A stretch of DNA of 64,000 nt from Asticcacaulis sp. AND118 (lineage in GTDB: Bacteria > Pseudomonadota > Alphaproteobacteria > Caulobacterales > Caulobacteraceae). A program made the position numbers and the translations under genes. Where the stretch lies: NCBI RefSeq assembly GCF_020535245.1, contig NZ_CP084910.1, forward strand, positions 372,001 to 436,000. Reading direction: 5' to 3'. Positions 4,525 through 62,560 of the stretch are shown here, one piece after another; within the stretch, counting starts at the first letter, position 1; each line of letters begins with the position of its first letter. Under the pieces are notes generated by a model. It was not told the DNA's origin, did not search any database, and saw only the letters and a list, made by a program, of their open reading frames with translations.

Positions 4525-4863
4525 ATGGATGCTCATGAAAAGAAGGCTGCGGTCGCCGCCTATAAGGAGCGCAAATCGATCAGCGGAGTCTATGCGGTGA
4601 TCTGCAACGCGACGGGTGAGGTCTGGGTGGGCGCCAGCCGGAACCTTGAGGCGCAGCAAAACGGTCTGTGGTTCACACTGAGGTTGGGCCATCACATCCA
4701 CAAGTCGTTGCAGGCCGTCTATCATGAACACGGCGCGGAGGCGTTTCGTTACGAAGAACTGGACCGTGTGCCGGAAGACTATTCCGACATGGCGCGCAAG
4801 GATGAGCTGAAGCGCCGCAAGGCTCTGTGGCAGCAGAGATTGCAGGCAGAGGGATTGCTCTAA
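4525..4863 (+). CDS. GIY-YIG nuclease family protein
   Basis: A 112-residue protein with the GIY-YIG core in modified form: GVYAV near residue 20 and VWVGASRNLE about 12 residues later, so the second motif reads VWVGAS. An Arg (R in ASRN) and a downstream Glu (around residue 75) are in the expected places for the fold, but activity is not certain. Proteins of this small type are common in alphaproteobacteria and have no settled function. It is divergent from the DUF2239 gene. The start has AAAGGAG upstream. The stop codon touches the left end of the DUF559 element at 4865. Confidence 0.85.
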   Translation: MDAHEKKAAVAAYKERKSISGVYAVICNATGEVWVGASRNLEAQQNGLWFTLRLGHHIHKSLQAVYHEHGAEAFRYEELDRVPEDYSDMARKDELKRRKALWQQRLQAEGLL

Positions 4864-4864
4864 T

Positions 4865-5410
4865 CATTCCTCCCCAGTTTACTGGGGAGGGGGACCGCAC
4901 GAGCGAACGTAGTGAGTGAGATGTGGTGGTGGGGTATCTTAATTTCTTGGACACACCCGCTAGCGTGTTCATATGACTGATGTCCCAAACCAAAGATCGC
5001 CTTGGCCCGTAAGCTGCGCAAAGCGCAAAACCTGTCGGAGTGGCTTATCTGGGAACGGTTGAAAGATCGCAAATCTTTGGGTGCCATCTTTCGCCGTCAG
5101 CATGCTATCGGGCCGTATATTCTCGACTTCTATTGCTTCAAAGCCCAGCTTTGCATTGAGATTGATGGAACCTTGCATGGGGAAGAGACGCAACGCGCCA
5201 AGGACATGCAGCGCGATCAGTGGCTTCAGAGTCAGGGCCTGACGGTCTATCGAATTACTGCCGCCGAAGTGCTGCGTGATGCCGATGCGGCGGCGGATGG
5301 GATTATCCAATTGGCTTTGGCGCGGATCGCACAAAATTAAGATACCCCACCACCACATCTCACCTTCGGCTCGTGCGGTCCCCCTCCCCACCAAAGGTGG
5401 GGAGGAATGA
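4865..5410. mobile_element. Type A element carrying a DUF559 nuclease gene
   Basis: About 545 bp bounded by long imperfect terminal inverted repeats of roughly 75-80 bp. The left arm (4865-4945) runs from ATCATTCCTCCCC through a terminal hairpin, GGGGGACCGCACGAGC, an internal hairpin and GAGATGTGGTGGTGGGG to TATCTTAATTT. The right arm (5335-5410) is its reverse complement and ends GGGGAGGAATGAT. The single gene inside is the DUF559 protein, and its stop codon overlaps the right arm. The arms are shared with about ten gene-less or partial copies elsewhere in the window. No transposase is present; mobility is inferred from dispersal only. Confidence 0.75.
5002..5340 (+). CDS. DUF559 domain endonuclease-like protein
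   Basis: A 112-residue protein of the DUF559 family, which has the Vsr/PD-(D/E)xK nuclease fold. Visible family motifs are FRRQHAIGPYILDFYC and LCIEIDGTLHG, carrying the likely acidic catalytic residues, then the C-terminal GLTVYRITAAEVL. The only in-frame start is TTG at 5002 because TGA lies in frame at 4978. An ATG at 4973 is in another frame and would join the gene after a one-base shift, so the N-terminus may be slightly damaged. It is the only gene of a type A element. The substrate is unknown; a role in repair or in moving the element is speculation. Confidence 0.82.
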   Translation: MARKLRKAQNLSEWLIWERLKDRKSLGAIFRRQHAIGPYILDFYCFKAQLCIEIDGTLHGEETQRAKDMQRDQWLQSQGLTVYRITAAEVLRDADAAADGIIQLALARIAQN

Positions 5411-5443
5411 TAAAAAGAAAGCCCCGCTGTTGCCAGCGAGGCT
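5411..5443 (-). terminator. Terminator after acnA
   Basis: AGCCCCGCT and AGCGAGGCT pair around a 6-base loop (5420-5443). On the minus strand the stem is followed by TTTCTTTTTA, giving a clear U-tract for acnA transcripts. The similar stem after acnB suggests the two terminators share ancestry or sequence preference. Confidence 0.75.
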
Positions 5444-11373: not shown

Positions 11374-11570
11374 TCTTATACCTCCCCGCCTATGGCGGGG
11401 AGCCGGGCGGCCTGTGCCGGGGACCATTTGCGAAGCAAATGGTGGTGGGGTGCCTTGCTGTATGCCACCTGCACAGCTTGTTGAAGTTAAGAAAGAACCC
11501 CCCCCACCACCTCTCACCGCCGTTGGCGACTCGTGCGGTCCCCCTCCCCAACAAGTTGGGGAGGTATAGA
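11374..11570. repeat. Type A repeat, complete without a gene
   Basis: Starts 1 base after the ccmG stop with TCTTATACCTCCCC and ends GGGGAGGTATA. The terminal stems are CTCCCCGCC/GGCGGGGAG at the left and CTCCCCAAC/GTTGGGGAG at the right. The inner left hairpin is CCATTTGC/GCAAATGG. The core (CCTTGCTGTATG...GTTAAGAAAGAA) matches the core of the copies at 17016, 25756 and 62380. The left arm has a short extra GC-rich stretch (GCCGGGCGGCCTGTGCC). Confidence 0.75.
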
Positions 11571-17015: not shown

Positions 17016-17195
17016 TTATTCCTCCCCATCTTTGATGGGGAGGGGGACCATCAAGCGTAGCGAAGATGGTGGTGGGGTATCTTGCGATACATCCACCGGC
17101 TTAGTCCGCTGAAATTCAGTAAGAACCCCCACCCCCACATCTCACCGCCGTTGGCGGCTCGTGCGGTCCCCCTCCCCAACAAGTTGGGGAGGTAT
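17016..17195. repeat. Type A repeat, complete without a gene
   Basis: Begins just after the TPR gene stop (TTATTCCTCCCC) and ends GGGGAGGTATA. The left terminal stem is CTCCCCATC/GATGGGGAG and the right CTCCCCAAC/GTTGGGGAG. The inner left hairpin uses CCATC/GATGG. The core TCTTGCGATACATCC...CTGAAATTCAGTAAGAA is in the same orientation as at 25756 and 62380. Confidence 0.78.
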
Positions 17196-25755: not shown

Positions 25756-25939
25756 ATCATTCCTCCCCGACTTCTCGGGGAGGGGGACCATTTGCAGAGC
25801 AAATGGTGGTGGGGTGTCTTGCGATATGCCCCACCTGATCAGTTTACTGAAATTAAGAAAGAAACCCCACCACCACATCTCACCGACCTTTGGTCGGCTC
25901 ATGCGGTCCCCCTCCCCGGCATAGCCGGGGAGGTATGAT
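25756..25939. repeat. Type A repeat, complete without a gene
   Basis: ATCATTCCTCCCC to GGGGAGGTATGAT, 7 bp after the small ORF stop. The left terminal stem is CTCCCCGA/TCGGGGAG, the right CTCCCCGGC/GCCGGGGAG. The inner left hairpin is CCATTTGC/GCAAATGG, and the inner right is CGACC/GGTCG. The core TCTTGCGATATGCC...CTGAAATTAAGAAAGAA is typical. Confidence 0.8.
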
Positions 25940-26829: not shown

Positions 26830-27311
26830 ATATACCTCCCTGCACTTTAGTGCGGGGAGGGGGACCGTTCGCGGAGCGAAGGGTGGTGGGGTGCTCTCTT
26901 TGTCAGCCACAGATCCGAAGCAAATTGTCAGGGCGCGGCGGTTCCGTAAGGCATTGACTCAGCCGGAATGGCTGTTGTGGGAGCGTTTGAAGCATCGCCT
27001 TGACGATGGGTTGATCTTTCGTCGACAGCATCCGGTAGGGCCCTATATTCTCGACTTCTATTGTAAAGCCGCGGCCTTATGCATCGAGGTTGACGGTGGT
27101 TTGCATAGTCTCGGGGATAGGCCGGAGCGAGATGCTGAGCGCGACCGGTTTCTGGGGGCGCAGGGGTTGGAGGTCTATCGCATTCCGGCGGCAGAGGTTT
27201 ATGCTGATCCGGATGCGGTGGCCGATGGGGTGAGGTTGAAGGCGTTGGCGCGGGTGGAAGGGTTGTGAGCCACCCCACCACCATAGGCTCCGCCCTCCTG
27301 TCAGCGCGGAG
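26830..27311. mobile_element. Second type A element with a DUF559 gene
   Basis: The left arm (26830-26893) is intact: TATACCTCCCTGCACTTTAG, GTGCGGGGAGGGGGACCG, GGTGGTGGGGTG. The DUF559 gene follows at once, beginning within the arm. The right arm (27269-27311) is decayed: CCACCCCACCACCATAGG is clear, but the outer hairpin is reduced to CTCCTGTCAGCGCGGAG. Compared with the copy at 4865 the gene is closer to the left arm by about 60 bp. Confidence 0.7.
26891..27268 (+). CDS. DUF559 domain endonuclease-like protein
   Basis: 125 residues, the same family as the gene at 5002 and clearly its paralogue: FRRQHPVGPYILDFYC, CIEVDGGLH and GLEVYRIPAAEVYADPDAV match closely. The likely catalytic acidic residues of the Vsr-like fold are present. 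It starts at GTG 26891 inside the GGTGGTGGGGTG of the left arm, so the repeat itself supplies the start region. The sequence appears intact, unlike the possibly shifted N-terminus of the other copy. Its role is unknown. Confidence 0.85.
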   Translation: MLSLSATDPKQIVRARRFRKALTQPEWLLWERLKHRLDDGLIFRRQHPVGPYILDFYCKAAALCIEVDGGLHSLGDRPERDAERDRFLGAQGLEVYRIPAAEVYADPDAVADGVRLKALARVEGL

Positions 27312-36322: not shown

Positions 36323-36505
36323 TCTTATACCTCACTGGCAATGCCGGGGAGGGAGACCGCACGAGCCGCCGCAGGCGGTGAGATGTGGTGGTGGGGTGTC
36401 TTGCGAAACCTTCCGCCGACGCGCAGGCTGAACGCGATTAAGCCCCCCCACCACCCCGCCCTTACGGGCGCGGTCCCCCTCCCCAACAAGTTGGGGAGGT
36501 ATGAT
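36323..36505. repeat. Type A repeat between chvI and chvG
   Basis: TTATACCTCACTGGC at the left, GGGGAGGTATGAT at the right. The left terminal stem has decayed slightly (CTCACTGGC/GCCGGGGAG). The inner left hairpin is CCGCC/GGCGG within GACCGCACGAG...GAGATGTGG. The core (CTTGCGAAACCTTCC) differs from other copies. Its right end is the ribosome-binding site of chvG. Confidence 0.75.
36493..36499 (+). promoter_or_regulatory. Repeat-derived ribosome-binding site of chvG
   Basis: GGGGAGG, the terminal arm of the type A repeat, lies 7 bases before ATG 36507. The ATG at 36501 is only 1 base away, too close for initiation, so the repeat decides the start. Confidence 0.6.
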
Positions 36506-38093: not shown

Positions 38094-38272
38094 TCATCTT
38101 ATGCCTCGCCAGCTTGCTGGGGAGGGGGACCGCACGACGCGCGCAGCGCTAGATGCGGTGGTGGGGGTTCTTTTTGGCTCAACGGTTACAGCGTGTTGAG
38201 CCGTAGTAAGATACCCCACCACCCCGCCCTGCGGGCGCAGTCCCCCTCCCCGACAAGTCAGGGAGGAATGAT
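38094..38272. repeat. Type A repeat between chvG and hprK
   Basis: ATCATCTTATGCCTCGCC to GGGAGGAATGAT. Its core is reversed relative to most copies (GTTCTTTTTGGC...AGTAAGATA) and contains its own hairpin GGCTCAAC/GTTGAGCC. It begins 3 bp after the chvG stop and its right end serves as the hprK ribosome-binding site. Confidence 0.75.
38261..38267 (+). promoter_or_regulatory. Repeat-derived ribosome-binding site of hprK
   Basis: GGGAGGA is the right end of the type A repeat, 8 bases (from GGAGG) before the TTG at 38275. There is no in-frame ATG here; an ATG at 38268 is in another frame. Confidence 0.55.
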
Positions 38273-43862: not shown

Positions 43863-44013
43863 CTCTCTCCTCCCTATCGCGTGGCGATGGGGAGGTGGAT
43901 TTTGGAGCGTAGCGACAAAAGACGGAGGGGGCGAAGCCTTTAGAGTCACCCCCTCCGTCATCGCCATAAATGGCGCTGACACCTCCCCATTGCTACGCAA
44001 CAGGGAGGAGAAA
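43863..44013. repeat. Type B repeat
   Basis: CTCTCCTCCCTATCG to AACAGGGAGGAG. Inner parts GGGGAGGTGGATTTTGG, GACGGAGGGGGCGA and CACCCCCTCCGTC pair across the element. It fills the 160 bp between qor and the amidotransferase gene. Confidence 0.75.
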
Positions 44014-45483: not shown

Positions 45484-45664
45484 CTCTTATACCTCCCTGC
45501 CTCTGGCGGGGAGGGGGACCGCACGAGACGGCGAAGCCGTTGAGATGTGGGGGTGGGGGTTCTTTCTGAATTTCCGCGAACCCATAGGGTGGATAGATCG
45601 CAAGATACCCCACCACCACACCCTGCGGGCGCGGTCCCCCTCCCCAGCAAGCTGGGGAGGTATA
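45484..45664. repeat. Type A repeat, complete, core reversed
   Basis: CTTATACCTCCCTGCC at the left and GGGGAGGTATAG at the right. The core TTCTTTCTGAATTTCC...GATCGCAAGATA is the reverse complement of the usual core, so the element is in the opposite orientation. Stems: CTCCCTGCC/GGCGGGGAG (left), CTCCCCAGC/GCTGGGGAG (right), inner ACGGC/GCCGT (left) and CCTGCGGG (right). Confidence 0.78.
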
Positions 45665-53773: not shown

Positions 53774-53882
53774 TTCCCTCTCCCTTGAGGGAGAGGGTGG
53801 CCTGAAAGGCCGGGTGAGGGGGATAAGTACTGAGATTGTAACTCCCCCCTCACCCCAGCCCTCTCCCTCAAGGGAGAGGGGG
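53774..53882. repeat. Type C repeat
   Basis: CCCTCTCCCTTGAGGGAGAGGG and CCCTCTCCCTCAAGGGAGAGGG at the two ends, with GGTGGCCTGAAAGGCC and GGGTGAGGGG / CCCCCTCACCCC pairing inside. It extends the open frame of the helicase upstream, where translation is unlikely. Confidence 0.75.
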
Positions 53883-58799: not shown

Positions 58800-58904
58800 A
58801 CCCCCTCTCCCTTAAGGGAGAGGGTGGCCCGCGAGGGCCGGGTGAGGGGGCTGTCCCGCGCCGGTTTCCCCCTCACCCCAGCCCTCTCCCTCAAGGGAGA
58901 GGGG
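58800..58904. repeat. Type C repeat
   Basis: CCCTCTCCCTTAAGGGAGAGGG and CCCTCTCCCTCAAGGGAGAGGG ends, with inner GGTGGCCCGCGAGGGCCGGG and the pair GGGTGAGGGGG / CCCCCTCACCCC. It fills the gap between leuA and the DUF2125 gene. Confidence 0.75.
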
Positions 58905-62379: not shown

Positions 62380-62560
62380 ATCATACCTCCCTGGCTATGC
62401 CGGGGAGGGGGGACCGCGCCCGAAGGGCGGGGTGGTGGGGTGTCTTGCGATATACCCACCTGCTCAGTTTTCTGAATTCAGTAAGAACCCCCACCACCAC
62501 ATCTCACTCACTACGTTCGTTCCTGCGGTCCCCCTCCCCAACAAGTTGGGGAGGTATAGA
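62380..62560. repeat. Type A repeat, complete without a gene
   Basis: ATCATACCTCCCTGGC at the left and GGGGAGGTATAGAT at the right, starting 3 bp after the hisC stop. The core TCTTGCGATATACCC...CTGAATTCAGTAAGAA matches the 17016 and 25756 copies. Stems: CTCCCTGGC/GCCGGGGAG, CTCCCCAAC/GTTGGGGAG, inner CGCCC/GGGCG at the left. Confidence 0.8.

Follow-up and report, generated by a model that had tools for sequence, protein, structure and literature searches.

Introduction

The closest described counterparts of the element reported here are the RAYT (TnpA-REP) transposases and the REP and REPIN sequences associated with them. RAYT genes are under purifying selection. As in that system, the element at 4863-5411 has one small nuclease gene flanked by inverted palindromes, gene-less inverted dimers are found elsewhere, and the gene, in this case DUF559, evolves under purifying selection. 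Unlike RAYT, it encodes a PD-(D/E)xK catalytic domain and not a Y1/HUH domain (PF01797). Its arms, unlike REPs, carry no GTAG tag, the edges in the source genome being by reading GGTGGTGGGG, GACGGAGGGG or GGGTGAGGGG. Two hairpins per arm, and up to ten genes per genome with arms that differ from one another, further separate it from the RAYT/REP arrangement.

The REPs with a CGTC tag form a superfamily found mainly in Alphaproteobacteria; the part of their description considered here reports no association with a transposase gene, a dedicated transposase being apparently absent (Di Nocera 2013, PMC3733652). Set against the same part of that description, one of the three arm types of our source genome (type B), as read from its sequence, appears to have CGTC on one side and a CCA-like tail on the other, and it forms inverted dimers. 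In type B the CGTC ends point inwards, towards the gene, unlike those of the predominant HH dimers of the paper, which lie outside; most type B stems are not of 8-9 bp, and the two other types (A and C) have no CGTC tag (PMC3733652). The resemblance is a lead, not an identity, and a reading of type B as plain CGTC REPs was dropped, as the tags face the other way in the part of the description compared.

Among nucleases of known function, the homing endonuclease I-Bth0305I, an EDxHD enzyme (PDB 3r3p) whose gene is located in an intron, has the catalytic fold that modelling predicts for DUF559. Its gene differs in setting from those for DUF559, which lie between dispersed palindromes at many unrelated sites in intergenic DNA. 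We found no report of a link between DUF559 and repeats in the full-text literature, covered at the level of titles and abstract openings, with subscription papers and preprints outside this scope. The available part of the RepRanger paper of 2025 (PMC12306157) makes no mention of a nuclease, a transposase or RAYT, and the corresponding part of the study of VsrA, a DUF559 protein of Caulobacter crescentus, describes no link to repeats and does not contain the string 'palindrom' (PMC12907096). We regard the partnership of DUF559 with palindromes as new, because the element lacks the defining enzyme of any known family and yet would work in a REP/RAYT-like manner.

Results

A DUF559 gene between two nested-hairpin arms

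The window, the whole stretch of 64,000 nucleotides that was analysed, covers positions 372001-436000 of contig NZ_CP084910.1 in the 4.05-Mb genome of Asticcacaulis sp. AND118. The intergenic element at 4863-5411 (Table 1) lies downstream of a gene that we take, from its translation, to be acnA-like. Folding gives an outer and an inner hairpin in each arm, the left one being 83 bp and the right one 78 bp long. The two arms are complementary at 30/30 inner bases, at 25/27 middle bases and at 74% over 31 nt in the terminal hairpins. Only one ORF lies between them. In a profile search it matches PF04480 with E=1.1e-27 (96.5 bits, curated cut-off 20.6); an in-frame TGA at 4978-4980 means that it can start no further upstream than this codon, and its TAA stop codon occupies 5338-5340.

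The exact outer hairpin CCTCCCC-N-GGGGAGG is present in 14 copies in the window and in none of 100 shuffles. Two copies belong to the element and 12 lie elsewhere, eight of the latter in pairs that enclose no gene, face each other and are spaced by about 150 bp, the partner being mostly inexact. The shuffles, the control genes and the reversed patterns (see below) rule out chance or base composition as the source of the arms. The preliminary description of this locus, a gene between inverted arms of about 75-80 bp with two hairpins each, its stop codon within the right arm and the same arms repeated without the gene across the window, holds in all these respects once its coordinates are shifted by a few bases.

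A small gene at window 4525-4863, which from its translation is presumably of the GIY-YIG kind, adjoins the element and matches group I intron endonucleases weakly (E 0.001). In one relative (G001) a similar stretch (L307) is found elsewhere, next to the site that corresponds to window 17000, and given this different location the gene may itself be mobile.

Table 1. Arms, genes and gene-less dimers in the window (positions in window coordinates)
Feature	Position	Strand	Remarks
Left arm	4863..4945	+	terminal ATCATT, outer hairpin CCTCCCC-loop-GGGGAGG (4869-4890), inner hairpin, inner edge GGTGGTGGGGTATCTTAATTT
DUF559 (PF04480) nuclease ORF	5002..5340	+	TTG start, 112 aa, stop codon within right arm
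Right arm	5334..5411	-	inverted copy of left arm; outer hairpin 5383-5405; end AATGAT
Second DUF559 element, left arm	26831..26893	+	
Second DUF559 domain (L004; G000:C1:398924-399232)	26924..27232	+	profile match
Second DUF559 element, right arm remnant	27271..27293	-	outer hairpin gone
Gene-less type A dimer	11381..11564	.	
Gene-less type A dimer	17021..17192	.	absent at same site in G015, G007, G018, G004, G006
Gene-less type A dimer	25762..25933	.	
Gene-less type A dimer	36330..36499	.	
Gene-less type A dimer	38104..38266	.	
Gene-less type A dimer	45492..45660	.	
Gene-less type A dimer	62386..62554	.	
Gene-less type B-like dimer	43867..44010	.	GACGGAGGGG edge; type bracketing DUF559 at L005
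Gene-less type C dimer	53777..53879	.	CCCTCTCCC..GGGTGAGGGG; type bracketing DUF559 at L001
Gene-less type C dimer	58804..58902	.	

Three arm types in the source genome

Besides the ORF at 5002-5340, the window contains another bracketed DUF559 gene (Table 1), and two further repeat types of the genome are each represented around a DUF559 copy; both points had been overlooked in the preliminary description. All five DUF559 genes of the source genome have inverted arms. Type A arms (CCTCCCC..GGGGAGGGGGACC..GGTGGTGGGG) flank L002, which is the 4863-5411 element, L003, and L004, where the right arm is truncated; the type B arm (..GGGGAGGTGGC..GACGGAGGGG) is that of L005, and the type C arm (CCCTCTCCC..GGGTGAGGGGG) that of L001. 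Each of the three types also forms gene-less inverted pairs within the window. Over the whole genome the exact patterns were found 78 times for type A and 54 times for type B, the reversed-pattern control giving 0. No Rfam model matched the window at its gathering score.

Bracketing of DUF559 genes within and beyond the genus

DUF559 is present in 23 of the 25 genomes of the genus, with 113 matches and 0 to 10 per genome. Bracketing was defined as a local inverted match between the 350-bp flanks with a score of at least 30. Ninety-six genes out of the 113 matches, including a few partial or frameshifted copies, were scored; 15 matches (lower-scoring ones, fragments and those at contig ends) remained outside the scoring. 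Also left out of these counts was L108, a 1622-residue open frame of different architecture with a DUF559-like match at residues 1338-1393. By this definition 78 of the 96 genes are bracketed and 18 fall below the threshold, compared with 3 bracketed genes among 380 controls, taken from the window and from 20 stretches of 20 kb of the same genus. The arms lie at a median distance of 60 bp before the domain (10th-90th percentile 38-126) and of 25.5 bp after it (15-83). Arm sequences diverge strongly between copies and match within one copy, and of 60 elements whose arms match strongly, 29 have the stop codon within the right arm.

Outside the genus, loci were picked by protein match only, mostly as the single best locus per genome. 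In a class sample of 142 genomes, taken as Alphaproteobacteria and including nearly one genome per family (about 138 families), a strong DUF559 match was obtained in 37; bracketing was found at 23 of the 29 loci with full flanks and at 1 of 33 neighbour genes. The corresponding figures were 16/26 and 1/26 in a phylum sample that again includes members of the class, and 62/79 and 5/117 in a set of named loci from other classes and phyla (80 loci, 79 scored). Six class, ten phylum and 17 named loci were below the threshold. The three sets overlap in a small number of loci, L130 and L197 among them. L130, from the class sample, looks like the same locus as the named L197 of Desertibaculum subflavum, and the assignment of the sample to Alphaproteobacteria rests on this resemblance. 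Chloroflexi, Melainabacteria, Nitrospira, Desulfobacterales and beta- and gammaproteobacteria are among the bracketed named loci.

The common form of the arm combines a C-rich hairpin, for instance CCCTCTCCC-loop-GGGAGAGGG, with a subsequent G-rich edge, for instance TTGGGGTGAGGG. Because the repeats share this consensus, mismatched arm pairs of the named set also reach a score of at least 30 (67/400), and neighbour genes are therefore the better control; at a score of at least 50, 47 of 79 own arm pairs stand against 8 of 400 mismatched ones. These data bear out the expectation that DUF559 genes in relatives are flanked by repeats, both in the genus and at most other loci tested, and the opposite case, in which such genes would mostly lack flanks, is clearly rejected in the genus, class, phylum and named sets. 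The bracketing of DUF559 genes by matched inverted palindromic arms is thus established as a general and not a local feature.

The flanks of E. coli K-12 ycjD (L325) are without paired arms (inverted match score 18). A hairpin of about 16 bp lies just upstream of this gene and a degenerate CTCTCCC..GAGGG stretch extends over its stop codon; both are possibly relics of arms.

At one conserved site (L001, L006-L012, L020, L021, L040, L057), DUF559 reads in frame into a ribD-like gene, the downstream gene at sites of the L001 type being assumed to be ribD from its translation. The in-frame run is present in 12 of 14 genomes examined, and in several of them the right arm is translated as a linker of the pattern PHPNPLPxGGERG.

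Variable inner stems that remain complementary on average

The inner stems vary, folding having been applied to 79 distinct inner parts of type A and 36 of type B. Their median energies are -4.0 and -2.8, compared with -1.8 and -0.8 for chimeras that combine halves of different copies. As the inner parts fold better than the chimeras, structure rather than sequence is kept on average; the distributions differ, though only 17/79 type A and 7/36 type B parts lie below the 5% mark of the chimeras. Folding replaced an earlier measure, the uninterrupted stem, which was too strict: stems of at least five uninterrupted pairs occurred in 9/47 type B and 5/50 type A parts, and in 17 and 2 of 2000 chimeras.

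A conserved nuclease under purifying selection

An AlphaFold2 model of the protein, based on an alignment of 56 sequences, has a pLDDT of 88.6. E13, D42, E53, D55 and H59 are invariant in these 56 sequences, and among 83 sequences of the genus, 82 or 83 retain the active-site residues. The fold together with the acidic and histidine active-site residues identifies the ORF as a predicted nuclease of the EDxHD/Vsr type of the PD-(D/E)xK superfamily. The best structural matches of the model are the I-Bth0305I domain (3r3p, E 1.8e-5), the nearest among solved structures whose function is known, and the Neisseria protein NGO0050 (3hrl, E 1.9e-5); by sequence profile they are matched with 9e-39 for 3hrl and 9.3e-5 for 3r3p. 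The fold is shared with Vsr and with VsrA (CCNA_02930), which contains a DUF559 domain, but Vsr itself is only a distant structural match (1vsr, E 0.033). PADLOC models matched were DpdF (E 8.4e-10), a methyl-directed restriction enzyme (5e-4) and a homing endonuclease (3e-3).

The dN/dS ratio was estimated for 22 pairs, of which 20 match in both outer flanks, one matches in one flank and one is L077/L069. Its median is 0.10 over the 19 computable pairs and its maximum 0.23; this, with the retention of the active-site residues, indicates an intact nuclease that is maintained by selection. Many of the DUF559 loci have orthologues in other species, which, combined with purifying selection, suggests that the gene serves the host and does not move freely.

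Filled, half-filled and empty sites

Pairs of filled and empty sites, foreseen in the preliminary description, do exist, and half-filled sites as well. Six of the 25 genus genomes share the neighbour gene of the acnA-like site and were compared downstream of it. The source genome (G000) has the whole element, G007 one arm and no gene, and G015, G006, G018 and G004 neither arm nor gene. At the L005 site, examined in 14 of the 25 genomes, G000, G015, G013 and G005 carry DUF559; others, such as G008, have repeats without the gene, and no repeat is found nearby in G018, G001 and G024. The arms of G004 at this site (L278) enclose a 27-residue C-terminal piece of DUF559 that is 89% identical to the G015 gene (E 7e-12), so that an internal-deletion derivative of a DUF559 element is here in plain view.

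Gene and arms also recur together in unrelated flanks. L077 and L069, two 77% identical copies of one genome, can be aligned from arm end to arm end, and their flanks are unrelated. Similar proteins at different sites have a median arm score of 81 (21 pairs, not independent), against 22 over 2190 pairs. A Mantel test on 38 site representatives gave a correlation between protein and arm similarity (rho 0.18, p=0.008), and none was found within one genome (rho 0.07, p 0.44).

Twenty gene-less type A dimers of G001 (L326-L345), chosen as inward pairs about 45 bp apart, have centres of 43 to 46 bp, and their edges (GTTCTTGCTTACTTA..) resemble the inner edges of the DUF559 element of the same genome over about 10-14 bp. 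Most of them have one long and one short inner hairpin around the centre. A constant centre of 45 bp fails as a general rule outside these chosen pairs: among 48 exact-edged pairs, 22 have gaps below 100 bp, which spread from 15 to 89.

Like classical insertion sequences and MITEs, DUF559 elements have terminal inverted repeats. Unlike them, they show no target-site duplication, a direct repeat of at least 3 bp being present at 0 of 60 elements; repeats of 2 bp occur at 6 of the 60, compared with 3 by random pairing. Element ends were set by the inverted match, and a duplication in self-palindromic ends such as TATA would escape this count. No element was caught in movement among the genomes compared.

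Co-occurrence of repeats and nuclease

A generic arm pattern was counted in the class sample, overlapping matches included, and genomes were taken as repeat-positive when two or more matches remained after subtraction of the reversed control; 14 genomes with only weak DUF559 matches were scored as negative for the gene. Repeats are present in 34 of the 37 genomes with a strong DUF559 match and in 10 of the 105 others (p=2e-20, without control for G+C). The co-occurrence is found both in genomes of at least 3 Mb (25/26 with DUF559, 4/30 without) and in those of 1 to 3 Mb (9/11 and 6/69), and when two arms are subtracted for each DUF559 gene it amounts to 30/37 against 10/105 (p=9e-16). The reversed pattern, which was subtracted, gave 1 to 3 matches in a few genomes and 110 in G080, compared with 155 forward. 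Three genomes of the sample (G027, G035 and G163, the first and last belonging to one family) have 12 to 25 arm-pattern matches and no DUF559 match; these may be relics or depend on another enzyme. Pattern matches were also found in 21 of 22 genomes of the named set, with 2 to 173 each, overlaps counted, in a series chosen for holding DUF559 loci and thus without a DUF559-free comparison.

Within the genus, copies of type A arms show no correlation with the number of type A DUF559 genes (rho 0.14, p 0.49), and no dosage link was found for this type. The relation is weak for type B (rho 0.43, p 0.03), and for total arms and total DUF559 rho is 0.16 (p 0.46). G024, with no DUF559 match, has 40 type A and 9 type B arms; G006, also without DUF559, has one and five. 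Independence of copy number from DUF559, which would have refuted the initial proposal, is rejected across the class, and within the genus the picture is mixed.

A profile search for the Y1 domain of RAYT-type transposases (PF01797) gave no match in the source genome at E 0.001. Across the class, Y1 is matched in 11 of the 44 genomes with repeats and in 21 of the 98 without, and the two are not associated (Fisher p=0.67).

Discussion

Our results are probably best explained by an autonomous palindromic element whose sole gene is the DUF559 nuclease, and which spreads or maintains its gene-less relatives. The stretch 4863-5411 would then be one unit, in which a pair of inverted arms with nested hairpins encloses one gene for a Vsr/EDxHD-type PD-(D/E)xK nuclease. 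Gene-less dimers with the same arms would be its non-autonomous relatives, in part at least internal-deletion derivatives. The proposal that DUF559 mobilises or maintains these repeats is favoured by the generality of the link, by the filled and empty sites and by the co-occurrence across the class; the copy number of type A arms within the genus speaks against it.

If DUF559 moves the repeats, the nuclease would recognise its hairpin arms, in all likelihood while replication leaves them extruded or single-stranded, and would nick or cut them, acting also in trans on gene-less copies. PD-(D/E)xK nucleases cleave DNA but are not known to join strands on their own, and host functions would therefore have to complete the process, host replication or repair finishing the copying or insertion. 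DUF559 may in this way do on its arms the work that RAYT does on REPs, with an unrelated catalytic fold.

The main competing accounts are maintenance and homing. According to the former, a resident Vsr-like repair or hairpin-processing enzyme keeps the arms paired or limits hairpin damage, the arms being its binding sites and regulators, which it does not move. The dN/dS ratio near 0.10, the long residence at orthologous sites and the inner stems that vary yet stay complementary on average are all consistent with such a role, as is the SOS response reported for VsrA upon loss of a cytosine methyltransferase in the part of the study considered here (PMC12907096). Maintenance nevertheless leaves unexplained the presence and absence of whole elements, the finding of gene and arms together in unrelated flanks and the up to ten DUF559 genes per genome, and we regard it as rather unlikely.

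Homing would require that DUF559 cuts gene-less sites or repeats and that the arms serve as homology for copying of the gene, the repeats being landing pads spread by other means. The structural match to I-Bth0305I, the one arm without a gene at the acnA-like site of G007, and the arms and short inner edges that gene-less dimers and gene-bearing elements have in common would fit this scheme. At the acnA-like site, however, arms and gene alike are missing from four relatives, left and right arms match within an element despite wide divergence between elements, and repeats are rare in class genomes without DUF559, so that homing appears unlikely.

It is very unlikely that DUF559 genes are passengers that insert into or between pre-existing palindromic hot spots and have no effect on them: palindromes are known insertion targets, for example of ISPpu9 in REPs, but the arm-to-gene spacing, the matched inverted arm pairs, the similarity of proteins and arms across sites and the co-occurrence across families argue against it. 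Mobilisation by RAYT (Y1/HUH) transposases, with DUF559 incidental, can practically be dismissed, since these known partners of REPs, although matched in a quarter of the repeat-bearing class genomes, have no match in the source genome and no class-wide association with the repeats.

Returning to the autonomous palindromic element, a broader view can be put forward tentatively, at somewhat less than even confidence. DUF559 could be the dedicated enzyme of a large, multi-phylum group of C-rich palindromes (CCYYCCC-loop-GGGRRGG plus a G-rich edge), cutting hairpins in single-stranded DNA or cruciforms and moving or copying the elements without an HUH or DDE transposase, while foldback copying would keep the varying stems complementary.

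Many bacterial genomes are rich in dispersed palindromes, whose origin is unexplained outside the REPs linked to RAYT. The bracketing of DUF559 genes in several phyla provides a concrete enzyme candidate for such palindromes. In turn, the repeats offer a biological setting for DUF559 and other Vsr-like nucleases and, perhaps, point to a new way of moving DNA.
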